Source: a virus
Virus record (IMG/VR): IMGVR_UViG_3300037560_000238
Span: 1-38,434 of that record
Length of the DNA stretch: 38,434 nucleotides
Direction: 5' to 3' (one strand)
A program made the position numbers and the translations under genes. This document shows positions 1-38,434 of this stretch, piece after piece. Each line of letters starts with the position of its first letter. Position 1 is the first letter of the stretch. Below the pieces are notes generated by a model. The model saw only the letters and a list, made by a program, of their open reading frames with translations, was not told the DNA's origin and ran no database searches.

Positions 1-1992
1 CCTGGGGGGAAATCTACTCTCTCCGCCCCCCGCCTCGGCCAACCCCCTCCCGCCGTCCTGCCCGACCTAGTGGCTTTGGACATCGAAACCTACGGCATCC
101 TCGAAGGGTTCCCGGAGCAGACCGTTTTTCACCCGGCCAAATCCGTGGCAGTGGACAAGGTGGCCCGTGGCGACCTGGTCCAGTGCGTCTCTCTGGCTTG
201 GTGGCAGGGCTCCGACTCCGAGATTCAAACCACCGTCTTCCTCTGGAACCGTCCCGCCCACCGCAAGCTGCTTCTTCTGTGGCTCCAACGCCTCCGTGCC
301 CAGGGGGCCACCCTTCTGTGCATGAACACCCTGTTCGACGTGACCTACCTCCGTTTCGCCGACCCCCGCTTCACCGAGGCCGTCTCCGAGCCGTTACTCC
401 TGGAAGACGTGGCGATTTGGAACTACCTCAACAGCTCCATCCGACCCGAGAGAAGCCTCGAAGCCCTGGCCCGTCTTCACGGGTTCCTTCCTCTGGCCGA
501 GTCCGCGACCAAGAAATTCAAGCGTTATGACTCCCTGGCAGACCCTGCCCTGCTGCACTACAATGCGGCTGACTCCGAGTTAGCCCTCCGCCTACGCCGA
601 CACCTCCGCCACCAGCTCGGCAAGGACGCCTCCAGCGAGTACACCCGCCGATGGTTCTCTAATCTGCTCTGGTCGTGCGTCGAGATGACCGAAGCCGGAG
701 TCGCCTTCAGCACACCAGCGCTGCAGCAACTCTTCAAAGACTGCGAGGCCTCGAAAGTTCAAGCCTCCACCCTCGTCCTGCGTGATGGCTACGGCCCTCT
801 CCAAGGCCCCGGCTCCTCCCGGACGGCTTTCGACATCATCACCCAAGCCGTCGAAATCGCCGGCCTGACGGTTGACCGGCGGCTCAAGCGGACGCCCAAA
901 CGAGGGCAGGTCTCCACCGAACAAGACAATGTCCAGCTTATCCGTGGTGCCTTACCCGCCGACGATCAGACCATCCGGCCCTATGTCGAGGCCCTGTCAA
1001 GTTATCGCACGGCCGCCAAAGTCATCGGCACCTACATCAACCCCCTGCTGCCCGACTTAGCCAAGAACTCCAAGCAACTCCTAATCGACGGCCTCGCCCA
1101 CCCCCAGTGGTATCCATGCCCCCAGCCCTACGGCGAGGCGGGCGGTGGTACTGTAGAGGGCGGCACCGTCCAAGCCCGGCCGACCTGCAAGCAGCCGGCA
1201 CTCCAGACTTCTCCTAAGTCCGTCCAGCTCTGCTTTACCTCGCGGTTCCGCCCGGGTGCCTTAGTCAAATGCGACCTTTCGCAGATTGAGCTGCGCCTGG
1301 CGGCCCTCCTGTCCGGGGACGCCCGGATGACGGACGAGTTCGCTTGCGCCATCGACTTGCACGCCCGCCGTGCCGTGGCCTTCTTTGGCTCGGAAATCCT
1401 GGAGTTGAGCAAGCCCGAGTTCAAAAAGTGGCGACAAGTCGGCAAACAGGGGAGCTTCTGGTTTATCTATCGCGGCGGGCCTCGTGTCCTGCAGGAAACC
1501 GTGCGACGGAAAGTAGGAGTAGAACTGGCATTGGAGCAGTGCTATGAGTTCCAGAAGCAACTGCCCCGAGATTATCCGGGCCTCTACGAATGGCAGAACA
1601 AACTGATCCGGGATACCACCCGAGACGGCTACATCTCAGCACCAATCCTTGGCGACCGCCGCTTCCTCTCCCGCAGTGCGTATGTCAACGAGACCACCTA
1701 TGAAAGCACAATTTGCAATTTTCCAATCCAAGTGACAGCCGCCCGCCTGATGTGCGACATCCAAGCCGACTTACGCCGTCTCGCCCGGCCCTTGAAGTTA
1801 CGCGGCCTCATCGGCCTGAACATCTTCGACTCCGTCTACATCGACTGCCCGCTGCAAGAAATCGAAATCTGGCCGAAAATTTTCAAAACAGCCTTGCACT
1901 ACTCCGTCTTCTGGAGTAAACTTAGAAGTGTAGTGGGCCGCTCAGTGCCCCTCGACTTCGAGACAACCACAAGGAAGTTCTTACAGAACTAG
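1..1992 (+). CDS. Family A DNA polymerase with 3'-5' exonuclease domain, 5'-truncated by the window edge
   Basis: Template-directed DNA synthesis with proofreading, presumably the phage replicative polymerase. Numbering is from the GTG at position 70. Exonuclease motifs are intact: D4/E6 in LDIETYG, N86/D90 in NTLFD, and Y164/D168 in YNAAD. The polymerase domain shows motif A (D402 in CDLSQIELR), motif B (R455, K459, F463, Y467 in GKQGSFWFIYRGG), the NFPIQ helix near 550 and motif C near 586-588. Motif C reads FDS instead of the usual HDE, and R468 sits where Pol I has G767. The frame is open from base 1. The GTG at 70 has no ribosome-binding site and falls inside the first beta strand (DLVALDIETYG), so it is probably an internal Val and the true start lies upstream. 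Family assignment is secure; the missing N-terminus is inferred. Confidence 0.93.
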   Translation, partial: PGGKSTLSAPRLGQPPPAVLPDLVALDIETYGILEGFPEQTVFHPAKSVAVDKVARGDLVQCVSLAWWQGSDSEIQTTVFLWNRPAHRKLLLLWLQRLRAQGATLLCMNTLFDVTYLRFADPRFTEAVSEPLLLEDVAIWNYLNSSIRPERSLEALARLHGFLPLAESATKKFKRYDSLADPALLHYNAADSELALRLRRHLRHQLGKDASSEYTRRWFSNLLWSCVEMTEAGVAFSTPALQQLFKDCEASKVQASTLVLRDGYGPLQGPGSSRTAFDIITQAVEIAGLTVDRRLKRTPKRGQVSTEQDNVQLIRGALPADDQTIRPYVEALSSYRTAAKVIGTYINPLLPDLAKNSKQLLIDGLAHPQWYPCPQPYGEAGGGTVEGGTVQARPTCKQPALQTSPKSVQLCFTSRFRPGALVKCDLSQIELRLAALLSGDARMTDEFACAIDLHARRAVAFFGSEILELSKPEFKKWRQVGKQGSFWFIYRGGPRVLQETVRRKVGVELALEQCYEFQKQLPRDYPGLYEWQNKLIRDTTRDGYISAPILGDRRFLSRSAYVNETTYESTICNFPIQVTAARLMCDIQADLRRLARPLKLRGLIGLNIFDSVYIDCPLQEIEIWPKIFKTALHYSVFWSKLRSVVGRSVPLDFETTTRKFLQN

Positions 1993-2235: not shown

Positions 2236-2436
2236 ATGAAATTCAAGATCAAAGACGAGATTGCAGAAGATGTCCTGGAAGCGTTTCTCCACGTGGAAAA
2301 AGACGGCTGTTCTCTCGTGCTGACGGTTAGTGGCATTCGTATACTCCGCCTCGACTCCCTGGGCGTCCATCGGTTCAGCCCTGACGGTTTCACCGGCATC
2401 CAAAAGGACAATTGCGGGAGAGTCTTGGACTACTAG
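2236..2436 (+). CDS. Hypothetical small protein, copy 2 of a tandem paralog pair
   Basis: A 66-aa protein beginning MKFKIKDE and ending NCGRVLDY. It is a diverged copy of the preceding gene, which begins MKFNITND and ends SLGRVKD. The start follows TAGGAGACCCTTGCA, so the upstream stop overlaps the Shine-Dalgarno sequence. The same arrangement recurs at its own end (TAGGGAG before the next start), so the whole stop/ribosome-binding-site unit seems to have been copied with the gene. Function unknown. Confidence 0.72.
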   Translation: MKFKIKDEIAEDVLEAFLHVEKDGCSLVLTVSGIRILRLDSLGVHRFSPDGFTGIQKDNCGRVLDY

Positions 2437-8019: not shown

Positions 8020-8123
8020 TGGGCGTTATCGATGGAATCATTCTGGCAGTGGTGGCCGGGCTTCGCTGGCTGTGGCGTGCTCTGACGTGGCCGCTGCGTA
8101 AGCTCGGCGGGAGGTTGCCATGA
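8019..8123 (+). CDS. Tiny hydrophobic/amphipathic membrane peptide, 34 aa
   Basis: An ATG-TGA frame that starts in a TGATG overlap and ends in an ATGA overlap with the genes on either side, so it fills the gap exactly. The N-terminal half is hydrophobic (VIDGIILAVVAGL). The rest alternates Trp/Leu with Arg/Lys (RWLWRALTWPLRKLGGRL), giving an amphipathic, positively charged helix. This composition suits a membrane-active or membrane-bound peptide. No homolog is recognised. Confidence 0.55.
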   Translation: MGVIDGIILAVVAGLRWLWRALTWPLRKLGGRLP

Positions 8124-8356
8124 CAAAGTACCGCAAGAAGCCCGTGGTTGTCGAGGCCGAGCAGTTCTGGCCGGAGCAGAAGCCGTGGCCGGAAGGGGTC
8201 GAACAGCATGGGTTTGGCTTCTGGTTGAAAACAGTTGAAGGCTGGTACGTGGCAGACGTCGCCTGCGGCGATTGGATTGTTGACGACCCGCGTGACGGCC
8301 TTCGGGTGTATAAGTCGGGCGAGTTCGAGGCCATTTGCGAGAAGGTGGAACCATGA
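8120..8356 (+). CDS. Small phage protein of the YRKKP-VEA-Q type (PGDYG-like), left-arm copy
   Basis: A 78-aa protein beginning MTKYRKKPVVVEAEQF, with GDWIV in the middle and a C-terminal F-x-A-I-x-E-K segment. It belongs to a common phage small-protein type (start YRKKPVVxEAxQ, central GDW/Y) of unknown function. A second, diverged copy lies on the opposite strand at 32104-32385. Start by ATGA overlap with the preceding peptide gene. Confidence 0.72.
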   Translation: MTKYRKKPVVVEAEQFWPEQKPWPEGVEQHGFGFWLKTVEGWYVADVACGDWIVDDPRDGLRVYKSGEFEAICEKVEP

Positions 8357-8406: not shown

Positions 8407-8592
8407 ATGGCGAAGAAACGGTTGGTGCGCGGCCTTGACTGGCATGCGTGGGTATGGTGCTGGGACGACGACGGCATCATTGACACCGCAACATACCCAA
8501 CAAAGGCCAAGGCGATACGTCAACGGTCGTTCTTGGTGTCCGGTGGCCATTGGATTCGCGTGAAGTTCGTGAAGGTCCGCGAACGCCCTTAG
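8407..8592 (+). CDS. Hypothetical 61-aa protein, paralog of the next gene
   Basis: Begins MAKKRLVRGLDWHAW and ends HWIRVKFVKVRERP. The next gene has the same frame: MAKKRFDGWAFRL at the start and KWVRVKLVEVHLDR at the end. The two are diverged tandem copies. AAGGAG lies 6 nt upstream. Aromatic and charged residues alternate, so a small beta domain is likely. Function unknown. Confidence 0.62.
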   Translation: MAKKRLVRGLDWHAWVWCWDDDGIIDTATYPTKAKAIRQRSFLVSGGHWIRVKFVKVRERP

Positions 8593-8605: not shown

Positions 8606-8803
8606 ATGGCGAAGAAACGATTCGATGGCTGGGCTTTCCGACTCCGCAAAGGCGGATACTACTGTGAGGAATGGTGGTCGCGCGTTCCTCTGATAATGCG
8701 GCTGAAGCCAAGTCAGCACTGGAATGGAATGGACCGCGCGGATACTGATGAGCCCGGCAAGTGGGTTCGCGTGAAGCTCGTGGAGGTCCACTTAGATCGT
8801 TAG
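8606..8803 (+). CDS. Hypothetical 65-aa protein, paralog of the preceding gene
   Basis: Start at the ATG of GTGATGGCG, preceded by GGAGG. It begins MAKKRFDGWAFRLRKGG and ends KWVRVKLVEVHLDR, matching the previous gene at both ends. The start region ATGGCGAAGAAACG is identical to that of the previous gene for 14 nt. Function unknown. Confidence 0.62.
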   Translation: MAKKRFDGWAFRLRKGGYYCEEWWSRVPLIMRLKPSQHWNGMDRADTDEPGKWVRVKLVEVHLDR

Positions 8804-17831: not shown

Positions 17832-18275
17832 CTACATCTCCGAGATCCAGTAGCGTTCATCCCGAATCGGCACCAGAATGATCGTAAGACAAGCCCCAAC
17901 CAAATTCGTATGGTTTCCAGTTTCCTTCAGGACAATCCGGTCTCCATCTGCCAGCTTCAAACTGGACTCCGTAGTGACGAGAGTGGCTGTGTAGACTGTA
18001 TCCTTCGTCAAAGCATCGCTGAACTCTGAAACCATATCCGTCCCTGCGGATTCGGCCTGTGTGCCCGTGCATTTCTTGACGAGAATCGTGCCTCCCGTTG
18101 AATTTGTGTGCCAGGCCGCTTCCACCGAAACAAGCCGATAAGCCTGATCGGCAATGAACACCGTCTGAGGCACCGCATTAATATGAGCAGCCGTGGGGAT
18201 GTGAATATTAACGACGACCATCCCCGTGCGGGCGCCGCCGCGACGGCCGACGTTCTGGTCTTTCACTTTTGCCAT
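17832..18275 (-). CDS. Beta-rich virion-region protein, tandem copy 3 of 3
   Basis: A 147-aa protein of the same type as the two genes transcribed before it. Shared landmarks: a Gly/Arg-rich start (GRRGGARTGMV), FIADQAYRLVSVEAAW, a TGT/GTD segment, TTES-LKLADGDRI and a hydrophobic end strand before YWISE. The pattern (strand, FIADQ-Y, GDR, final V-x-V-L-I-P strand) recurs in phage proteins of unknown role found among structural genes. I infer a decoration, fibre or tail accessory protein. Ribosome-binding site GGAGG lies inside the upstream gene. Confidence 0.68.
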   Translation of the reverse strand: MAKVKDQNVGRRGGARTGMVVVNIHIPTAAHINAVPQTVFIADQAYRLVSVEAAWHTNSTGGTILVKKCTGTQAESAGTDMVSEFSDALTKDTVYTATLVTTESSLKLADGDRIVLKETGNHTNLVGACLTIILVPIRDERYWISEM

Positions 18276-18278
18276 CGT

Positions 18279-18719
18279 TTAGCCCTCCGAGATCCAGTAC
18301 CTCTTGTCACCATCGGGGATCAGCCACACCACGACCACCAAGCCGACTTGATTTGTCACGGTCCCGGCAAACTCGGCCATCAGCCTGTTGCCATCCTCGA
18401 TCGTCAAGTAGGTTTCCGTCGTCGTCAGCGTGCCGGTGTTCACCGTGTCATCAGCCGTGCTCAGGTCAACCGTGCTGGCCAGAAGGTCATCACCAGACCC
18501 GACGGCCTCGGTGCCCTGGCAACGCTGGAGCTGGAATGTCCCCGAGGTGCTCGGAGCATCCCAGGCCAGTTCAACACTGTAGAGCCGATACTTCTGGTCG
18601 GCGATGAACATCGTCTGAGAGATCGTCTCGGTTGCCGTTGGGCAGTGCAGGTTGACCGGCACCATACCTTTGTGCGCCCCGGCGCGTCGGCCCAGTTGCG
18701 CGCTATTTACTTGCGCCAT
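18279..18719 (-). CDS. Beta-rich virion-region protein, tandem copy 2 of 3
   Basis: A 146-aa protein. Landmarks GRRAGAHKGMVPVNLHCP, FIADQKYRLYSVELAW, QRCQGTEAVGSGDDLL, TTTETYLTIEDGNRL and the terminal KRYWISEG align with both neighbours. It is closer to copy 3 at the ends (both end RYWISE) and to copy 1 in the middle (QRCQG-EA-GSGDDLL is shared with copy 1). It is the only copy with a long purine-rich leader, so it may be the most highly translated of the three. Confidence 0.7.
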   Translation of the reverse strand: MAQVNSAQLGRRAGAHKGMVPVNLHCPTATETISQTMFIADQKYRLYSVELAWDAPSTSGTFQLQRCQGTEAVGSGDDLLASTVDLSTADDTVNTGTLTTTETYLTIEDGNRLMAEFAGTVTNQVGLVVVVWLIPDGDKRYWISEG

Positions 18720-18725
18720 TTTTCG

Positions 18726-18751
18726 TTTCTCCTTTCCTTTTCTTTCCTTTC
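18726..18751 (-). promoter_or_regulatory. Uninterrupted 26-nt purine tract with stacked Shine-Dalgarno sequences
   Basis: The transcribed strand upstream of the 18719 start is all purine for 26 nt, with repeated AAGGA/AGGAAAG units and AAAGGAG nearest the start. Such unstructured purine leaders act as strong ribosome-loading sites in phage late genes. No promoter sequence is evident in the 39-nt gap. Confidence 0.55.
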
Positions 18752-18758
18752 GGTTGAA

Positions 18759-19193
18759 CTACGTGCGGGTGTAGTACTTGTCCGCCAACGGCATCAGGAA
18801 GACCGTCACGCACAGTCCCGCCAGAGCGTCCGTACCCGCGCTGAACTCGATACCCAGCCGGTCCCCTGCCGCGAGGATCAAGTTGGCTGGTGTGGTGCTC
18901 TGCAGAGCAGGAGTGTTCACGGTTTCGACCGTAGTGCTGACGGCCAGCGCGGCCTCCAGTAGGTCATCGCCAGACCCTGCAGCCTCAACACCCTGGCAGC
19001 GCTGAATCTGGATGGTCTCCGTCGCATCCAACGTGGCCCAGACGGCCTGGACGGACACCACCTCATAAGACTGATCGGCAATGAAGAAAATCTGGCTGAT
19101 TATCTCCGCCGCGAGTGGCATGTGATACTGCGCACACACCAATCCTTTCCGGGGGTTGTCGCCCCCCTTCAAACTCGTTCCTGTTACCGGCAT
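18759..19193 (-). CDS. Beta-rich virion-region protein, tandem copy 1 of 3
   Basis: A 144-aa protein. FIADQSYEVVSVQAVW, QRCQGVEAAGSGDDLLEAAL, LILAAGDRLGIEF and the closing VTVFLMPLADKYY align with the two following genes. The N-terminus differs most (MPVTGTSLKGGDNPRKG). Start in a TGATG overlap with the spanin-like gene upstream, so the lysis-like cluster and the structural trio are on one message. Decoration or fibre role inferred. Confidence 0.68.
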   Translation of the reverse strand: MPVTGTSLKGGDNPRKGLVCAQYHMPLAAEIISQIFFIADQSYEVVSVQAVWATLDATETIQIQRCQGVEAAGSGDDLLEAALAVSTTVETVNTPALQSTTPANLILAAGDRLGIEFSAGTDALAGLCVTVFLMPLADKYYTRT

Positions 19194-31198: not shown

Positions 31199-32104
31199 TT
31201 ATTTCCGGGCGAGCTTCTCCCTCATCCTGGTCAGTAAGCTGGCCTCGTAGCCTTCGTCGTGCGGCATCAACTTCTCTTTTTTGAGTGATGGGTGGAGTTG
31301 ACTTACCGTGTGACTCGAAGGCCCGACGCCCGCCATACTGCCAATTGCGGGTGATCCGCCCTCACCTGTCTCTAGGGTACCTTTGCCTCGCCAGGCCGCT
31401 ATCGTGACCTTCAGGGCCTTAAGCCCCTTCGAGACAGCAGATCCCCACGGAACAGTTTTGCTCGCCTCTCCTACTTTTCCATACGCCAGCCGACGAAGCT
31501 CCAAAGCGGGTCCTTCGTCGAGCTCTGCCAATAGTTTAGACAGTTCTTCGTCCTTGTCAAGGGCCGCGTCCACCTCCCGCAGAACGGCCTGTTCTTTCCT
31601 TTGGATCCCCCGCGCCTCATCCTTCTTCTGCAGGGCCTCAATCTGCTTCCGCTGCTCCTCAAGAGCCCCCACCAATTCGTCAAACCGTTCATCGCCGTCC
31701 AGCGAGGAAGACGAGTGTTGCGTTCCGACAGCGTCCTGACCTCCCGGGGAAGAGGAATCTGTGCTCCTCAACGTGTCGGCAGGGGTGAAGATCTCGTCCA
31801 ACTGACTGTCAGTAGCCCCGGAATTCTTAAACGCACGCCGTAGTTTCGAGGGATCCGTCTCGGCTAGGCCCTCGGAAAGATCCCTCTGCACTCCCAGCGC
31901 ATCCTCAGCGGAGGTCTTCAGCTCATGGGCCTCTGCAAATCTCCGCTCTGCTGCGGTCCCCTTCTGATACTGCTCCAACAGCTTGGTCAGGGGAACCGTC
32001 TCCTGTTTGCCGGAAATCACGGCCTCCATTGCCAGGGCGGCGGCTTCCTCTCCGGAAAGCACTCTGATGTCTTCTTGCTTCTTACTCGGGTCAGGGTCGG
32101 GCAT
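31199..32104 (-). CDS. Probable scaffolding protein
   Basis: A 301-aa, highly charged protein with predicted long helices (DERFDELVGALEEQRKQIEAL, then KKDEARGIQRKE). It contains a Ser/Asp-rich disordered middle (STDSSSPGG) and a basic C-terminal segment (SLKKEKLMPHDEGYE, then TRMREKLARK). Acidic helical body with a basic end, located just before the capsid gene, is the usual scaffold pattern: the basic tail binds the shell. Start in a TAATG overlap with the gene upstream. No protease-cleavage motif is visible. Confidence 0.7.
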   Translation of the reverse strand: MPDPDPSKKQEDIRVLSGEEAAALAMEAVISGKQETVPLTKLLEQYQKGTAAERRFAEAHELKTSAEDALGVQRDLSEGLAETDPSKLRRAFKNSGATDSQLDEIFTPADTLRSTDSSSPGGQDAVGTQHSSSSLDGDERFDELVGALEEQRKQIEALQKKDEARGIQRKEQAVLREVDAALDKDEELSKLLAELDEGPALELRRLAYGKVGEASKTVPWGSAVSKGLKALKVTIAAWRGKGTLETGEGGSPAIGSMAGVGPSSHTVSQLHPSLKKEKLMPHDEGYEASLLTRMREKLARK

Positions 32105-32385
32105 TATTTCTCTCCTTGGGAAAGAAGTTCATATTTTTCATGTATCGCCGTGAAATGTTCTTCGCTGCAGTGGTACCGATAGCCATCACTGTCGGTAACG
32201 ATCCAATCGCCAGAAAACACTGGATAAAGAGGACCGCATCCAGTCACCCCCTGGAAGTAGTAGCCGAAGGGTCGCTCCAAAGATACCACACCCTTAGGCC
32301 ACGGCCGGTTTTGTGGTAAGAACTGTTCGGCCTCAACGGTTTTGATTTTTTCGCGGTATCTCACTCTCGACGGGTCGGGGTCCAT
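32104..32385 (-). CDS. Small phage protein of the YRKKP-VEA-Q type (PGDYG-like), right-arm copy
   Basis: A 93-aa protein with RYREKIKTVEAEQF, PWPKGV, GDWIVTDSDGYRY and FTAIHEKYE. It aligns with the left-arm protein at 8120 (KYRKKPVVVEAEQF, PWPEGV, GDWIVDD, FEAICEKVE). The right-arm copy has extra N- and C-terminal residues. Ribosome-binding site GGAG is present. Function unknown; it sits among capsid genes here and among accessory genes in the other arm. Confidence 0.7.
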   Translation of the reverse strand: MDPDPSRVRYREKIKTVEAEQFLPQNRPWPKGVVSLERPFGYYFQGVTGCGPLYPVFSGDWIVTDSDGYRYHCSEEHFTAIHEKYELLSQGEK

Positions 32386-32632
32386 TCAGGGTCTCCTGGC
32401 TCAGGTTGGGGGGAGGTCGGTCCAAAAACTCTGCTATGCGGCATCCTTTGTGGTGAGGGGCCGGCACGCTCAGGCCTATGGGAAAGAGTGATTCCTCTGA
32501 TACAAACCGATGCGCCTCGCAATCAGGGCACCAGTAGTCGTAGCCGGGGGAGGTTTGACGAGGCCCACAACCACGACCGTCCCCGCTCCACTCGATGTCC
32601 CCCAGCAATTCCCGGAGATTTTCATTGGTCAT
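32333..32632 (-). CDS. Small zinc-finger-like protein, 99 aa
   Basis: Start at ATG 32632 with GAGGAG 7 nt upstream; a GTG 18 nt earlier would place the ribosome-binding site inside the gene. Cys at CGPRQ, CPDC with a following His, and HHKGC give a possible zinc site. The 3' end overlaps the following gene by 53 nt in another frame, so the Pro/Arg/Gln-rich last 18 residues are constrained by that gene. Function unknown. Confidence 0.6.
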   Translation of the reverse strand: MTNENLRELLGDIEWSGDGRGCGPRQTSPGYDYWCPDCEAHRFVSEESLFPIGLSVPAPHHKGCRIAEFLDRPPPNLSQETLNGPRPVESEIPRKNQNR

Positions 32633-32710
32633 CTCGGATCTCCTCTTCACATGGGAGGTGAGTCCGCTGGGAAAATGAAAGTGCTGTCGTGCTGGCAGGC
32701 CGGATGGAAA

Positions 32711-32728
32711 ACCGGCACTCGCGCCGGT
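32711..32728 (-). terminator. Possible weak intrinsic terminator behind the metallopeptidase gene
   Basis: ACCGGC-GCGAGT-GCCGGT forms a 6-bp GC-rich stem with a 6-nt loop just behind the stop codon at 32732, followed on the transcribed strand by TTT then CC. The U-run is short, so read-through is likely. It lies near a change in strand composition. Confidence 0.4.
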
Positions 32729-32731
32729 GGA

Positions 32732-33157
32732 TCATTTCTTGCTCCTCTTGCGGGCCAGGGGGCTCCACCACTTGACGAAAAGGGCCAACAGTCGGGGGTT
32801 GTCGAGGAAGAGGTTCGTCAGGCCTTGCTCGGCGGCACGGGTAAACAGTTCCCCAAGATCAGTGTATTTGCCCCGATCGGCGATGTCGGAACTCTCGAAT
32901 TTGTTGTGGGCTCTGTCCCCTACAACTGCGTGGACAACTTCGTGGAAGAGAACATCAACAGCGTCGAAGCCTGTTTGGTCCGCGCGGATCCGAATCTCGC
33001 CGTCTCCGTAGGCGATACAGCCTCGGAATTCATCACCGTCGGACCAGTCGTCTTCGGAGATGACGCGGACTTTGAACCACTCTGCGCCTACTCGGACTGG
33101 CGAAACTGCCAGGATGGCGCGGTGGATGGGGTCGGGCTTGGGTTTCTTGGCGGGCAC
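32732..33157 (-). CDS. HExxH zinc metallopeptidase-like protein
   Basis: A 141-aa protein. FHEVVHAVVG gives the HEVVH zinc motif at 72-76, with E73 as the catalytic base. A candidate third ligand is E103 or E110 in the helix GELFTRAAEQGL. The N-terminal strands (WFKVRVISEDDW, GEIRIRA) match the layout of small phage SprT/ImmA-type metallopeptidases. The gene starts at a GTG in a TAGTG overlap with the portal gene, with AAGGAG upstream. Position between portal and scaffold makes a role in head maturation worth testing, although phage prohead proteases are normally serine proteases. Confidence 0.75.
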   Translation of the reverse strand: MPAKKPKPDPIHRAILAVSPVRVGAEWFKVRVISEDDWSDGDEFRGCIAYGDGEIRIRADQTGFDAVDVLFHEVVHAVVGDRAHNKFESSDIADRGKYTDLGELFTRAAEQGLTNLFLDNPRLLALFVKWWSPLARKRSKK

Positions 33158-35253
33158 TACGCGGCTCCTTGTGGTGGCTGGCCTTGGCCTTGGCCTTGGT
33201 TTTCGGCTGCATTGTTGGAGGCGGCTTCGTCTAACGTCGGCTGGTCGGGGTGGACGGGCTCACCCATGCGGGCCTTCAGGTCTGTCCAGCGGACCAGGAA
33301 GGCGTCCTGGACGGCGGAGGATGCCATATGGAATTCGGCACCGGCCATGAACTCTTCGGCGGCGAGGAGGTGGACTTCGGGCTTGTCGGCGGCCTCGTGG
33401 AAGTAGCTGCCGATGATGCCGGCGGCACGGTTGGAGCCGGGAAGCTCGCCGGGAACATCGCCGTCGTTGAATAGAATCAAGTTCACCAGGACGGCGCGGA
33501 TGTAGTTTTCCCAGACGACGCGGCTGCCGATGGGGTAGTTCCAACCTTCTTTGTAGCAAAGGATTATGAATTCCATTTGGGTCAAGAGGCCGGCTTGGAG
33601 GAGGCCGGGGGCTTCTTCACGGCGACGCTCGCCGCCTAGAGGGTCCTCGGAGCGGATGCCGATTTCGATGGAAAACGGGTCAGGAACCTGGCCGGGGCCG
33701 ATGCTCATGTTGCCCGTCTTGGCGTCGATGGTGACGCCCGCGATTGAGTTTTCGATGCGCGTGATGGGGACGCCCTCGGCGAGGAGGGAGGGGTCGGTGA
33801 GGCGCTGGCGGATTTCGTGGAGTTGGTGACGGTACATGGTCGTGTAGGCGGCTTTGATTAACTTGGCCGTCGGAATCAAGTGGGTGGAGCCTAGTTGGGC
33901 GAGGAGGTCGATGCCTCCCATGCTGTCCACGCGCTTGGAAGATTCGCCGGAAAACAGGGGGCCTTGGGCGCAGATGCGGTCTAATAGAGTGGTGCCAAAC
34001 TGGAAGGTGCGGCCGGGGATGTCGGAGGCTGTTGCGGGGAGGATGGAATCGACGCCGGAGCCGGTGGCGGTGAAATCGCGCTCGTAGGGGATGAGTTTGG
34101 GCGACTCGGTGGCTTTGAAGTTCTCGAAGTCGATGCCCTGGTCGTTAGGGACCATCGTGAAGCCGAAGCGGTCGAAGTCGGCCATGTTCTGGATTAACCG
34201 CTCCAGTAAGGCTTCTAATTCTAAGGCGAAGGGGATGATTCGGCCGGCGAAGCTGCGACCGTAAGCGTGGCCGGTGGACTGGTATCGGGCGATGCCTATG
34301 GGGAACGGTTGGTTGTATTGGCCGTCGTTGAGATAGTCGATGTCGGCGATGATGGCGCGGCCGGCGCGGGCGACGTAGCGGGCGGTCGTCTCGCCGGAGG
34401 AGCCCAGGGTGTAGACTTCTCGGAGGCGGACGAACTTTTCGACTGATTTGTGGGGGGGCAGCTTACGGCGGCGGATGGCACCGGCGAGCCGAGTGCGGCC
34501 GGAAGGGTCTTCGTCGAATAAGGACTCCAGAGTGCCGGCGCCGCCGGAGGTGGCCAGGCCGGGGCCGGAGACGGATTGGCTGGTGTTGGAGCCATAGGGC
34601 AACTCGACTATTTCCAGGTGGGTCTCATCTATGTCTTTGAAGGACAAGGCAGCCTGCTTGAGTAGCTGGGCTAACGGGAACAGGCGGGTGCGGACGACGG
34701 CGCGGAGGTCGGTAGGATTCGGGTGGCCGGCGGGGAGGAATAGTAGCTCCCACGGCGGGATCAGCTCGCGGACGTGAGCTAGAGGGCTGTCGCGGGTCTC
34801 GTCACGCCAGGAGGCGATGCCGTAGGTGCCGTATTGGACGAGGCCGACGAGGAAGCCCAGGTTGACGGCGTCGGAGTTGAGCATGGTTTCCTGGGTGTCC
34901 AAGAGGACCTGGCCGACGGAGGCGTCGCGGAGGGACTCCAGGCTGTTGCGACGCTTGGCACATAAGGGGCTTACGTCGAGGCGAGCCAGACGGCCGACTT
35001 CGGTCCAGATCTTGGTCAGGGGCTCTTCCCAGCGGAGGTGGAGGTTGCCGTCCGTCTCTTCGTAGGAAACGTCTAGTTCGCCACGGTCCATTGAGACCAC
35101 GTCGAAACGTCTCATGCCCTGCAGGTAGGCGTCTGCGACCCACCAGCCGATCTGATGCACATTACGCTCGACGATTGCCGGACCGATGAGCGTCTCGATG
35201 GCATCGGTCAGGTCGTCGGAACCCTTCTTCGGTAGCTCTAGGATTGCTCCCAT
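33157..35253 (-). CDS. Portal protein
   Basis: A 698-aa protein, the normal size for podovirus portals, and placed behind the terminase. Typical features: an N-terminal helical wing region, aromatic-rich VQYGTYGIASWRDE, a clip/stem part (GRSFAGRIIPFALELEALLERLIQNM) and a long C-terminal crown helix segment. The C-terminus ends in a Gly-Gln repeat (GQGQGQ) encoded by three hexanucleotide units at 33180-33197. Start at ATG 35253 with GGGAG upstream. Twelve copies would form the DNA gate of the capsid. Assigned by size, order and pattern rather than a single motif. Confidence 0.8.
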   Translation of the reverse strand: MGAILELPKKGSDDLTDAIETLIGPAIVERNVHQIGWWVADAYLQGMRRFDVVSMDRGELDVSYEETDGNLHLRWEEPLTKIWTEVGRLARLDVSPLCAKRRNSLESLRDASVGQVLLDTQETMLNSDAVNLGFLVGLVQYGTYGIASWRDETRDSPLAHVRELIPPWELLFLPAGHPNPTDLRAVVRTRLFPLAQLLKQAALSFKDIDETHLEIVELPYGSNTSQSVSGPGLATSGGAGTLESLFDEDPSGRTRLAGAIRRRKLPPHKSVEKFVRLREVYTLGSSGETTARYVARAGRAIIADIDYLNDGQYNQPFPIGIARYQSTGHAYGRSFAGRIIPFALELEALLERLIQNMADFDRFGFTMVPNDQGIDFENFKATESPKLIPYERDFTATGSGVDSILPATASDIPGRTFQFGTTLLDRICAQGPLFSGESSKRVDSMGGIDLLAQLGSTHLIPTAKLIKAAYTTMYRHQLHEIRQRLTDPSLLAEGVPITRIENSIAGVTIDAKTGNMSIGPGQVPDPFSIEIGIRSEDPLGGERRREEAPGLLQAGLLTQMEFIILCYKEGWNYPIGSRVVWENYIRAVLVNLILFNDGDVPGELPGSNRAAGIIGSYFHEAADKPEVHLLAAEEFMAGAEFHMASSAVQDAFLVRWTDLKARMGEPVHPDQPTLDEAASNNAAENQGQGQGQPPQGAA

Positions 35254-35267
35254 TTACTTCTCCCTCT

Positions 35268-35681
35268 TCATGCACTCTTTCCCTCGGTAGTCGGTTGCGG
35301 GGGGGTCTGCGGGGGGTGTCCCCCCGAAGGCGGCACGATGTCTTCGTCGGAGGGGTTGTGGAAGCGGAACTGGCCCGGCTGCAAAGGAACCAGGCGCTCG
35401 GCGGCGCGGGCTTGGGCGTGGCGCTTCTGCTCGGTGTTGAAGATCGAAGACATTAGGGGTGTTTTGGGCTGACGGTCGGCGGCCAGGCGCCGGGCTTCAA
35501 GTTGGGCGGCGGCGGCCGGGTAGGTAATCGACAGGGTCATAGCGCGGAGGCTGTCTGTGAGTTTGCTATTCAGCCTTGAAAGATTCCTAATGGCAAGGAT
35601 CATGCCGGCGTAGCCGACTAAGCCTGCGATGATCAGGAATACCGAGGCGGCCCAGAAAAGCGGGTCAGGTGGGATTTCCAT
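35268..35681 (-). CDS. Membrane-anchored small protein, 137 aa
   Basis: Begins MEIPPDPLFWAASVF with one transmembrane segment (about 8-30; FLIIAGLVGYAGMILAI), then a polar helical middle and a Pro/Gln-rich tail (PPSGGHPPQTPPQP). The ATG overlaps the upstream gene by 17 nt. The start region is a near copy of the start of the next gene upstream (MEIPPDP vs METPPDP). Membrane proteins between terminase and portal are unusual. Function unknown. Confidence 0.62.
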   Translation of the reverse strand: MEIPPDPLFWAASVFLIIAGLVGYAGMILAIRNLSRLNSKLTDSLRAMTLSITYPAAAAQLEARRLAADRQPKTPLMSSIFNTEQKRHAQARAAERLVPLQPGQFRFHNPSDEDIVPPSGGHPPQTPPQPTTEGKSA

Positions 35682-35695
35682 AGTGACGAAGTCCT
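35662..35695 (-). repeat. 34-bp gene-junction repeat, copy A
   Basis: Matches 35816-35849 at 31 of 34 positions by eye. On the coding strand it holds, in order, a ribosome-binding site (AGGA), the overlapping gene start (ATG GAA) and the stop (TGA) of the upstream gene, giving a 17-nt overlap. The upstream product ends RHYGNPT and the new one begins MEIPPDP. Confidence 0.85.
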
Positions 35696-35835
35696 TTCCT
35701 TAAACGTCGGCGGTGATACAGGCCCCAGGCGGCCTTTCCCGCAAGATGGAGATAGCAGAAAGTAACCACGCAAAGCATCGTCCAACCATGACAGGCCCAG
35801 CGCATCGCGGTTTCAGGGTCAGGCGGGGTTTCCAT
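35665..35835 (-). CDS. Small single-pass membrane protein, 56 aa
   Basis: Start at ATG 35835 inside the terminase 3' end, with GGAGGAG upstream; the frame is open further but without a good site. It begins METPPDPETAMRW, has one hydrophobic segment (WTMLCVVTFCYLHLAG) and a strongly basic tail (YHRRRLRKG), ending RHYGNPT. The gene starts and ends in identical 17-nt overlaps. It is likely related to the 137-aa gene by duplication of the start region. Function unknown. Confidence 0.55.
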   Translation of the reverse strand: METPPDPETAMRWACHGWTMLCVVTFCYLHLAGKAAWGLYHRRRLRKGLRHYGNPT

Positions 35836-35849
35836 AGTGACGAACTCCT
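35816..35849 (-). repeat. 34-bp gene-junction repeat, copy B
   Basis: Second copy of the junction element, here at the terminase 3' end. The terminase therefore ends RHYGNPA, nearly the same residues as the end of the 56-aa membrane protein, although the two proteins are otherwise unrelated. Three mismatches separate the copies. Confidence 0.85.
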
Positions 35850-37759
35850 CCAGGTCTGCCGCGCCGGGGTTTGCGGCTGCGGCGATGTTTAGACTCTGCT
35901 TCATTTTGTTCACGATGCCTTATCTTGTCAAGGCCCTGCATGGCTTCAGGACTGAGTTCGTCGGCGTTTAAAGCGGCCATGATGGGTAGTCGGGTGCCGG
36001 GGATGAACTTTTCGCCCCTGGCGAGGCGCTCTTGGAGGGTCACGGGGGCCGTGTCGATAGGGCCGGAGGAGCCTCGGAGGCGGGGGATGAAGTTGGGCAT
36101 GGCGAGGGTGTCTATGGCGTCGTCGTAGGGGAGGAGGCTCAGGTCGGGGGTGAAGTCTCTGATTTGCTGAACCAGCTCTCGCCAGCCGGGTCGGGTGAGG
36201 CGGTGCTTGGGGAGTTTCAGGCGGTGGGTCTCGAAACGGACTGCTAAACTGGAAATGCGGCTGCCCTTGCCTAGGTCGCCGACGAAGTCGCGGCGGTAGT
36301 TGATCGGGTAGATGCGGGGGGTCCAGTCGCCGCTTGAACGGCCGGCGAGGGCCTGTTGGTTCAACTTGTCGGTGATCTCTTTTTGGGTGGAGATGGCTTC
36401 GACGGCCACGATGCGGGGCAGCCAGATCCCGCCGAGTTCCCAGATCCAGTCCAGGAAGACGGTGGGCTTGGGGCGGCCCAGTCGGATGGCCAGAGGCCAC
36501 CATACGTCCTGGAAGTCGCCATGACGCTCGACGCCTAGGACTATGATGCAGGCGAAGTCGGATGTGCTGGAGGGCTTGCGGATGGGGTCGGCGACGAGGA
36601 CGCGGTACATGCGAGATACAGTCTCGGCGAATGGGCGTTCGGTGCGGGTCGGCTTGCCCGTTTCTTTGTGGGGAGCCCAACTGACCAACTTGGCGGTGGA
36701 CTCGAATGGTTGACGCTCATAGTCCACTATGTCATTGTCGGAGGTGACGGCGTAGTAGTTGTAGGGGTCGTGGAGGGTCAAAACCTTGCTTTCGTCGGTG
36801 CCGGGGCTGTTCATGTACTGGGCGGCGAAAACCGAAGGCGGGAGGGATTCACGCAGCTCTTCGATTTTCTCCGGCGGGAACTTAGCCGGCCAGGTCGGCT
36901 CGCCTGTTTCGGGGTTGATGATGGCGAGGGTTTCGCGGTTCCAGAAGGCGAGGGTCGGATCCTCCTCTTGGGGAGTGTTGGCCTGGCGGTAGATGAAAAG
37001 TTTGCGATTGAACAGAGTGCCTACCAGGGCGGCGGCGCAGCCCTCGTCGAGCATGGGGATGACGCTGTGGAACCACATCTGGCGGAAGTTCTCGGCCAGG
37101 GCGGCGGGGCTGATGCGCATGGAGGTGTCGAATTCGGCGTCGTCGCAGATGATATACTGCGGACGGAGGCCCAATAGCTTGCCCATCACGGAGCGGCCGC
37201 GAAGCTCGAAGCCGTTGTTCAAAAGCAAATTGCCTTTGGACCAGATGCCGGCGGAGTTGCGCTTGGGTTTGAGGGGGCCGAAGTCGGCGAGGAGGCGCTC
37301 GTTGGACTCTATCTGGTACATCAGGCGGGCGAAACTGGACCTGACGAAGTCGTCGGAGGCTCGGATGATGAGGATCTTGAAGGGGGCACGGCCGAAACAG
37401 AGGGTCAGAATCAGCTCTTCGATCAGGGTGGACTTGGCAAAGCTGCGGGGGAGGATCTTGACATTGCGGGCGTAGGCGCCCAGGTCGTAGATGAACTCGT
37501 AGTGACACGGCGGGGACTCGTAGATGGGAGGCTTGTGCCACACTCCCGGAGGGAGAGAAAGCAGATAATGCTCGCGGAAGAAGGACCAGGCCCAAACCAA
37601 ATCCTCGGGGGTGTGCTGGTTGCGCACGGCGGCGACGCGAGCCAGGCGCTGGCCTTCCGGAGTGAGGCCGTCGTAGTCGGCTGGAAGAGGATGAAGAGGA
37701 TTGGTCGGCGTGGTTAGGACTCCTCGGTGCCTTTCGAGGTGAAGTCGTTTATTTCCCAA
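35819..37759 (-). CDS. Terminase large subunit
   Basis: ATP-driven DNA packaging motor and headful/cos nuclease. Numbering from a TTG at 37759 (646 aa). Walker A-like PRSFAKST (104-111) and Walker B IICDDAE (203-209) are followed by VGTLFNRK (about 246). In the nuclease domain, D391 (VADP), E454 (AVEA) and D546/D547 (YDDA) provide the metal-binding acids. The start is uncertain: conserved sequence begins near LTTPTNPLHPLPADYDG, just behind the upstream stop. No ATG or GTG lies between 37709 and the previous gene's coding region in this frame. A TTG 46 nt inside the upstream gene, or an ACG at 37711 behind GAGGAG, are the options. A GTG at 37915 would need a 202-nt overlap. Confidence 0.88.
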   Translation of the reverse strand: MGNKRLHLERHRGVLTTPTNPLHPLPADYDGLTPEGQRLARVAAVRNQHTPEDLVWAWSFFREHYLLSLPPGVWHKPPIYESPPCHYEFIYDLGAYARNVKILPRSFAKSTLIEELILTLCFGRAPFKILIIRASDDFVRSSFARLMYQIESNERLLADFGPLKPKRNSAGIWSKGNLLLNNGFELRGRSVMGKLLGLRPQYIICDDAEFDTSMRISPAALAENFRQMWFHSVIPMLDEGCAAALVGTLFNRKLFIYRQANTPQEEDPTLAFWNRETLAIINPETGEPTWPAKFPPEKIEELRESLPPSVFAAQYMNSPGTDESKVLTLHDPYNYYAVTSDNDIVDYERQPFESTAKLVSWAPHKETGKPTRTERPFAETVSRMYRVLVADPIRKPSSTSDFACIIVLGVERHGDFQDVWWPLAIRLGRPKPTVFLDWIWELGGIWLPRIVAVEAISTQKEITDKLNQQALAGRSSGDWTPRIYPINYRRDFVGDLGKGSRISSLAVRFETHRLKLPKHRLTRPGWRELVQQIRDFTPDLSLLPYDDAIDTLAMPNFIPRLRGSSGPIDTAPVTLQERLARGEKFIPGTRLPIMAALNADELSPEAMQGLDKIRHREQNEAESKHRRSRKPRRGRPGGVRHYGNPA

Positions 37760-37986
37760 CGCACGTCGTCCTCGAAAGTCTGCAGGATTTTGGCCAACTT
37801 TCCCCTGAACTGCGGCAGGTTTTTCTCCAGAGTGTTTTTGAAGGCTTGGTCTCCGATCTCGCTGAAAACCGCGCCGATGAGAGGAGTTACTTTGATGAGA
37901 TAGCAGACTTCGCACTGCCTGTCCTCACATTGAGCAAGATAGGGGGTTGTTTCGATGAAGATTCGAGGGCGGGTATTACTTCCCAT
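37714..37986 (-). CDS. Hypothetical 90-aa protein upstream of the large terminase (small-terminase candidate)
   Basis: Begins MGSNTRPRIFIETT, with GAGGAG upstream and an 11-nt overlap with the preceding gene. It contains a Cys cluster (CEDRQCEVC) followed by a helical, Lys-rich part (QAFKNTLEKNLPQFRGKLAKIL). Position directly before the large terminase is where the small subunit usually lies, but no helix-turn-helix is evident. A Cys-rich adaptor is another possibility. Confidence 0.55.
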   Translation of the reverse strand: MGSNTRPRIFIETTPYLAQCEDRQCEVCYLIKVTPLIGAVFSEIGDQAFKNTLEKNLPQFRGKLAKILQTFEDDVRWEINDFTSKGTEES

Positions 37987-38422
37987 TGGGGTTCTCCTCG
38001 GAGGTTCCACACGCACGGAATTCGAGTGGTTCGTCGGTGGCTATTTGGACGGAGCCGACGTAGGCGTGCAGGATAGCCTGGGCGGCGCGGAGGGCGCAGA
38101 TGATGCGGATGATCTTCTGGGTGCCCCAGACGCCGTTGCAGGACCGGGAAATCTCTCCATACAGCTCATCGGCGAGGCCGGTGTTAACGTCTTCACCCAC
38201 GAGGAGCAGGAGGTTCTCCTGGGTCTCCTTCACCATCTCCGGGTCCAGGCGGCTCAGACGCATCCCCAGGGTCGCTGCCAGGCTGCGGAGGATCCCCTGC
38301 TGGAAGGCGGGGTCCAGAAGACGGCGGCGCTCTGCGGGGGGGAGCCGGGGAAGGCTGGCTGCCGCAGATCCCTCCGCCAAGGGTGGGCTTGGTGGGGGGT
38401 CGGCGTCCGATGGGCTGGTCAC
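37976..38422 (-). CDS. Hypothetical 148-aa protein at the right edge (small-terminase candidate, 5' end uncertain)
   Basis: Pro/Ser/Ala-rich N-terminus (DADPPPSPPLAEGS), then helices (LLDPAFQQGILRSLAATLGMRL, QKIIRIICALRAAQAIL). The GTG at 38422 has no ribosome-binding site and the frame stays open to the window end, so the gene may continue beyond it. A helical protein upstream of the large terminase could be the DNA-recognition subunit, but no family motif is seen. Confidence 0.55.
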   Translation of the reverse strand: MTSPSDADPPPSPPLAEGSAAASLPRLPPAERRRLLDPAFQQGILRSLAATLGMRLSRLDPEMVKETQENLLLLVGEDVNTGLADELYGEISRSCNGVWGTQKIIRIICALRAAQAILHAYVGSVQIATDEPLEFRACGTSEENPNGK

Positions 38423-38434
38423 AAAGGGGGACGG

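Follow-up and report, generated by a model that had tools for sequence, protein, structure and literature searches.

A duplicated start/stop junction on both sides of a small open reading frame beside the terminase gene of an uncultivated virus

Among the closest described systems is that of the mycobacteriophage Island3, in which gp68, a protein of 85 aa with no homologues, is described as sharing 18 C-terminal residues with the upstream gp67 by way of a repeat of ~60 bp (PMC3029335). In the same account, its relative Brujita is given one recombinant copy (gene 66) and no gene 68, and short conserved boundary sequences are proposed as guides for the exchange of phage modules (PMC3029335). The Start-Associated Sequences (SAS) of Cluster K mycobacteriophages are reported to be 13 bp long and to occur upstream of start codons in 11–19 copies per genome, chiefly at genes whose intergenic gaps are larger (PMC3203893). 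For genes coupled by termination-reinitiation, the overlaps described as common are 4 and 1 nt (PMC10666635). Here we describe a locus that shares features with each of these systems.

We analyzed the IMG/VR record IMGVR_UViG_3300037560_000238, positions 1 to 38,434, which is the whole record of an uncultivated virus from a metagenome (hereafter the window, 38,434 nt). It starts inside a DNA polymerase ORF (1-1992, plus strand) and ends inside an open minus-strand ORF (37976-38434) and, given ORFs open at both ends, probably represents either a fragment or a circularly permuted sequence. Three genes, all on the minus strand, meet at the junctions of interest. TerL (35819..37915) matched phrog_38 when its 638-aa stretch 35819-37735 was compared (E value 5.2e-44). 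The earliest start codon in its ORF, a GTG at 37915, is a candidate for the true start, and the in-frame 638-aa stretch was used throughout. The last ~80 residues of TerL reach past its distant relatives and end in RHYGNPA. Downstream of TerL lies p56 (35665..35835), a 56-aa orphan ORF with a weakly hydrophobic middle (Kyte-Doolittle 1.37, which is borderline), a basic C-terminus and a net charge of +5, followed by p137 (35268..35681), a 137-aa orphan ORF whose product is clearly hydrophobic in an N-terminal segment of 19 residues (Kyte-Doolittle 2.35). Neither p56 nor p137 gave a Pfam match, a convincing PHROG match or a significant tblastn match among phages. After p137 comes a 698-aa protein in the position of the portal, a putative portal by gene order alone, with no family match and no phage match. 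The sign of the GC skew flips at ~32 kb (32000-38434) while the coding strand remains minus, and the coding strand of the TerL-portal block is C-rich; this block possibly has an ancestry different from that of the rest of the genome.

The two junctions carry near-identical copies of one element, as a preliminary description of this DNA had claimed. E1 (35816..35849, minus strand), at the TerL/p56 junction, contains the SD AGGAG, a 9-nt spacer, an ATG, the first p56 codons and the TerL stop, and E2 (35662..35695, minus strand), at the p56/p137 junction, contains the SD AAGGA, which spans the element edge, an ATG, the first p137 codons and the p56 stop. Each copy is 34 nt long, 31 of the 34 positions are identical, and the copies are spaced by 154 nt, a distance of 1 mod 3 that makes the frame relation equal at both junctions. 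Read 5' to 3', the element consists of AGGA (SD), a spacer of 9-10 nt, the ATG and five more codons. The TGA of the upstream gene begins 14 nt past the A of the ATG, giving the same 17-nt overlap of stop and start at each junction (35819..35835 for TerL/p56, 35665..35681 for p56/p137, both minus strand), again as first described, with the SD and ATG of each downstream gene sitting within the upstream gene. The upstream frame of the element encodes (V/L)RHYGNP(A/T) followed by the stop, and the downstream frame encodes ME(T/I)PPDP. The translations accordingly bear out the common termini of these unrelated proteins that had been pointed out previously: an RHYGNP end for TerL and p56 (RHYGNPT in the latter), and an ME-PPDP start for p56 (METPPDP) and p137 (MEIPPDP, followed by its hydrophobic segment). 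One of the differences between the copies, 5' of the ATG, exchanges V and L in the upstream frame only; another is silent in the upstream frame and exchanges T and I in the downstream frame; the last exchanges A and T in the upstream frame and is silent in the downstream frame. Three changes are too few for measuring selection.

The similarity ends abruptly at the edges of the element. Compared at an offset of 154 nt, identity is 0.90 inside the element and at background level on either side, and the 60 nt upstream of it are 0.33 identical in register. Gapped alignment of the 120-nt flanks scored 9.0 upstream and 13.5 downstream, where random same-strand window pairs gave a mean of 10.9 (sd 2.4), and the fraction of this null at or above the flank score was 0.819 upstream and 0.153 downstream. 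Protein comparisons beyond the element were likewise at chance (p = 0.49 for p56 against p137 and p = 0.33 for the TerL tail against p56, 300 shuffles each), and the 120-nt core of p56 (35696..35815) is unlike both the TerL tail and the p137 head. The whole-unit similarity expected of a tandem gene duplication is absent, only 34 of the 154 nt being alike. As in Island3, the shared C-terminal residues of two non-homologous neighbours, here TerL and p56, are encoded by a near-identical DNA repeat with unrelated flanks. The duplication of the start/stop junction is confirmed as genuine and not due to chance, and it is because the junction sequence is duplicated that the non-homologous TerL, p56 and p137 share termini.

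The resemblance to genes 67/68 of Island3, whose shared gene ends we also saw directly in the sequences, is that a small orphan gene lies directly downstream of a neighbour and shares its C-terminus through a short near-identical repeat, and that recombination between the copies can explain how the small gene is gained or lost. As described, however, the Island3 repeat (~50-60 bp) covers gene ends only, the next gene does not start in its second copy, and a single-copy relative exists, whereas both copies of E also hold a start with its SD, so that excision would restore both neighbours. The proposed boundary sequences are, like E, short similar sequences at gene boundaries that are able to direct homologous exchange; in the published proposal they are compared between genomes, whereas both copies of E are in one genome. 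Like E, SAS are repeated, include an SD and stand at the starts of unrelated genes, and an SD (AGGAG or AAGGA) was found just upstream of the ATG in each copy of E. Unlike the SAS as reported, E is 34 nt long, includes coding sequence and the upstream stop, and occurs in two copies at up to 3 mismatches rather than 11–19. The layout of coupled overlapping genes is also present, with the downstream start and its SD inside the end of the upstream gene, and from this layout translational coupling is likely at both junctions; the overlap of 17 nt, compared with the typical 4 or 1 nt, is not the best-documented geometry in the literature cited.

We surveyed 101 phage loci (1,407,910 bases, 1.41 Mb), comprising the window, named phages and IMG/VR contigs and leaving out four loci that are pieces of others; 80 of the 101 came from one terminase family scan, some being near-identical, and the loci are not independent. 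Repeat pairs within 3 kb that share SD and start (score 20 or more) were found in two loci: in the window and in CrimD, whose SAS pair served as a positive control. A shared start region combined with a shared upstream stop was found in one of the 101 loci, the window. The scan for shared gene ends gave six hits in five loci: the window, Island3 (L023), whose recovery was a positive control, and L020, L030 and L046, where the genes are candidates. With a score of 14 or more, the window holds eight start-similarity pairs against a null mean of 0.05 (internal ATGs). A genome-wide enrichment of start repeats was nevertheless dropped, since the weaker similarities are mostly ordinary when annotated starts are compared with those of EBPR podovirus 3 and CrimD (7 of 1378 and 14 of 2556 pairs, respectively, against 8 of 820 in the window). 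The E pair (score 25) alone stands out among the start similarities of the window. In Kuura, one pair lies above 12 (score 55), joining starts near both record ends.

The preliminary description had gone on to liken the element to a portable coupling cassette and had suggested looking for it between other genes of phages, and this idea found no support: the element is known in two copies only, both at this locus, and the viral, phage and plasmid searches gave no real match elsewhere. The window contains no third copy at three or fewer mismatches (0 in 100 dinucleotide shuffles), the 34-nt degenerate element pattern had 0 matches in viral_contigs, blastn of the junction region against phages returned only matches with an E value of about 9, and the plasmid search found neither a copy of the element nor a close relative. 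A much looser junction pattern matched two near-identical contigs, antisense to a long tape-measure-like ORF, and these matches were set aside as chance. The TerL, portal-position and capsid-position proteins found no close relative in viral_contigs, and the TerL alignment pattern and the searches of genome_contigs and phages found none either, although the single-protein searches use exact octapeptides, which relatives at about 60% identity could escape. A Walker B pattern retrieved nine contigs, each encoding only a distant TerL (about 22-29% identity). Among 50,697 phage records, the nearest TerL matches had about 22-30% identity over part of the protein only, and the capsid-position and portal-position proteins had no match. 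No relative with a single-copy TerL/p137 junction was found, nor any close relative in the collections searched. Judged by these comparisons the virus is an orphan, so that relatives give no reading of the order of events (insertion or excision), of the direction implied when the duplicated tail was first ascribed to TerL, or of copying as against tandem duplication under unequal constraint.

Other look-alike pairs occur in this genome. Three consecutive genes (17832-19193, minus strand), with products of 144, 146 and 147 aa, are homologous (z 42-61 relative to shuffles), and a 29-nt repeat is common to the 146/147 and the 147/254-aa junctions because the upstream genes are paralogs. Two small ORFs (8407-8592 and 8606-8803, plus strand) share the start MAKKR and the end G-W-RVK-V-V (49 nt at 76%) with unlike middles, a further pair that combines similar termini with dissimilar cores. 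The tandem homologous small ORFs at 2005-2223 and 2236-2436 (plus strand), which begin MKFNI and MKFKI, are closer in their start regions (79% of 38 nt) than in their bodies. By eye, a VEAEQF motif is seen near the N-termini of the products of 8120-8356 (plus strand) and 32104-32385 (minus strand), which may be related small proteins. Two consecutive genes within 31199-32385 (minus strand) begin MDPDPS and MPDPDPS and are not homologous beyond the start; counting the two ME-PPDP starts, the block has four P-D-P-rich gene starts.

We propose that E1 and E2 are a duplicated gene-boundary sequence that originated by short-homology recombination with the insertion of p56, and we give this account as a whole an even chance of being correct. 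The boundary would be the overlapping translation-initiation region and gene end that lead from TerL to the next gene. A short stretch with the p56 core would have entered the TerL/p137 junction, either as an insertion or in an exchange with another phage, through recombination that used or copied the boundary sequence. Since the similarity is limited to the boundary itself, this is the most likely course; the explanation does not account for the presence of that sequence on both sides before or during the insertion. At present, each copy would serve as an ordinary overlapping start, probably coupled to upstream translation. The pair would also make p56 removable, since recombination between the copies would lose 154 nt and rebuild the TerL/p137 junction intact. 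In silico, all 35 of 35 crossovers between E1 and E2 deleted exactly 154 nt, and every product retained the 638-residue TerL stretch ending RHYGNP(A/T), the 17-nt overlap and the 137-aa p137.

A similar arrangement would result from a 154-nt tandem duplication of the TerL tail, the boundary and the p137 head, yielding a chimeric ORF with the p137 start fused to the TerL end, in which everything except the doubly coding boundary has since diverged. This model requires a unit length of 1 mod 3, which 154 nt satisfies, although that condition has a 1/3 chance of holding anyway, and tandem gene duplication is frequent in the genome (the 146/147/144-aa paralogs and the 2005/2236 pair). Moreover, p56 and the TerL tail are both basic with an HRR, and an N-terminal hydrophobic stretch is common to p56 and p137. 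However, the flanks are no better than random window pairs (0.82 upstream, 0.15 downstream) against 91% at the boundary. A copied boundary could be mimicked if E were under strong double-coding constraint and p56 under none, but the contrast between flank and boundary would need a very large difference in constraint. The homologous neighbours of this genome are informative here: 2005/2236 are 79% identical over 38 nt around the start with proteins at z 12.0, and 18719/18275, the 146- and 147-aa paralogs, are 83% identical over 29 nt at the junction with proteins at z 60.8 and bodies alike at 54% of aligned DNA positions. E is unlike an old whole-unit duplication because these pairs, with less identical repeats, keep body homology; with 91% identity and flanks at chance, it has the look of a boundary that was copied rather than of an old tandem gene duplication, which we therefore hold to be unlikely while granting it an appreciable chance. 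That the element is instead a selected regulatory start sequence to which something binds, like the SAS, is very improbable. It is centred on the SD and start codon, and the sole other shared start region in the survey (score 20 or more, within 3 kb) is the SAS pair of CrimD; yet there are only two copies, adjacent to each other, the rest of the window has no further one at up to 3 mismatches, the weaker start similarities of the window are equalled in EBPR podovirus 3 and CrimD, and the identity extends into coding sequence. A role as an RNA structure was also rejected, the minimum free energies of the elements and of 91-nt windows being no better than those of shuffles (z 0.0 to 1.6). An assembly artefact, in which strain variants of the metagenome were misjoined, has to be considered for a single uncultivated record, but the copies differ at three positions, the frames are coherent on either side and the 120 bases in between are unique, so that it is barely credible.

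The proposed insertion concerns a putative gene, and p56 might instead be untranslated, in which case E2 would be the sole working start (for p137), the ATG of E1 a by-product and the 120-nt core (minus strand) a spacer or remnant. On the codon model of this phage the core scores -0.137 bits per codon, a value equalled or exceeded by 99.0% of 686 true coding segments, 16.7% of 1372 frame-shifted segments and 54.9% of 2058 antisense segments, and when synonymous choice alone is scored it falls at the 6th percentile among 683 true segments. Neither codon test therefore supports translation of p56. An open frame of its length survives in 20.7% of shuffled cores, and p56 has no homologue. On the other hand, E1 has a good SD at a spacing of 9 nt from an ATG, equally atypical codons are seen in several further short ORFs of the phage that have good SDs, and an untranslated gap of 138 nt would, we infer, be unusual within a packed gene block. 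Translation of p56 is thus possible, and we think an untranslated p56 the less probable state by some way. An orphan with atypical codons is what a recent accessory insertion might look like, although such codons can also mean that p56 is not a gene.

Under the duplicated-boundary reading, E1 and E2 look like the trace that a reshuffling of phage genes leaves behind, and one such trace has already been described, in mycobacteriophages. If this is right, the locus joins Island3 as a second clear example in which a duplicated gene end borders a small gene. In the literature searched, and to our knowledge, there is no earlier case in which the repeat also includes the start of the next gene. A more far-reaching and rather doubtful possibility is that E is a self-restoring junction: since one short repeat unites the end of the upstream gene with the whole start of the downstream gene, any small gene lying between two copies could be gained or lost through homologous recombination while either essential neighbour, in this case the packaging ATPase, stays unharmed. 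Were this so, such junctions could offer accessory genes a landing site within an essential block of phage genes, and the junction, rather than the enzyme, would dictate the C-terminal tail of TerL. For annotation, the locus is a warning that termini common to neighbouring phage proteins need not mean a common function. If the duplicated-boundary reading is right, it would offer a concrete view of how short boundary repeats enable genes to be gained and lost inside essential operons while leaving these unbroken.
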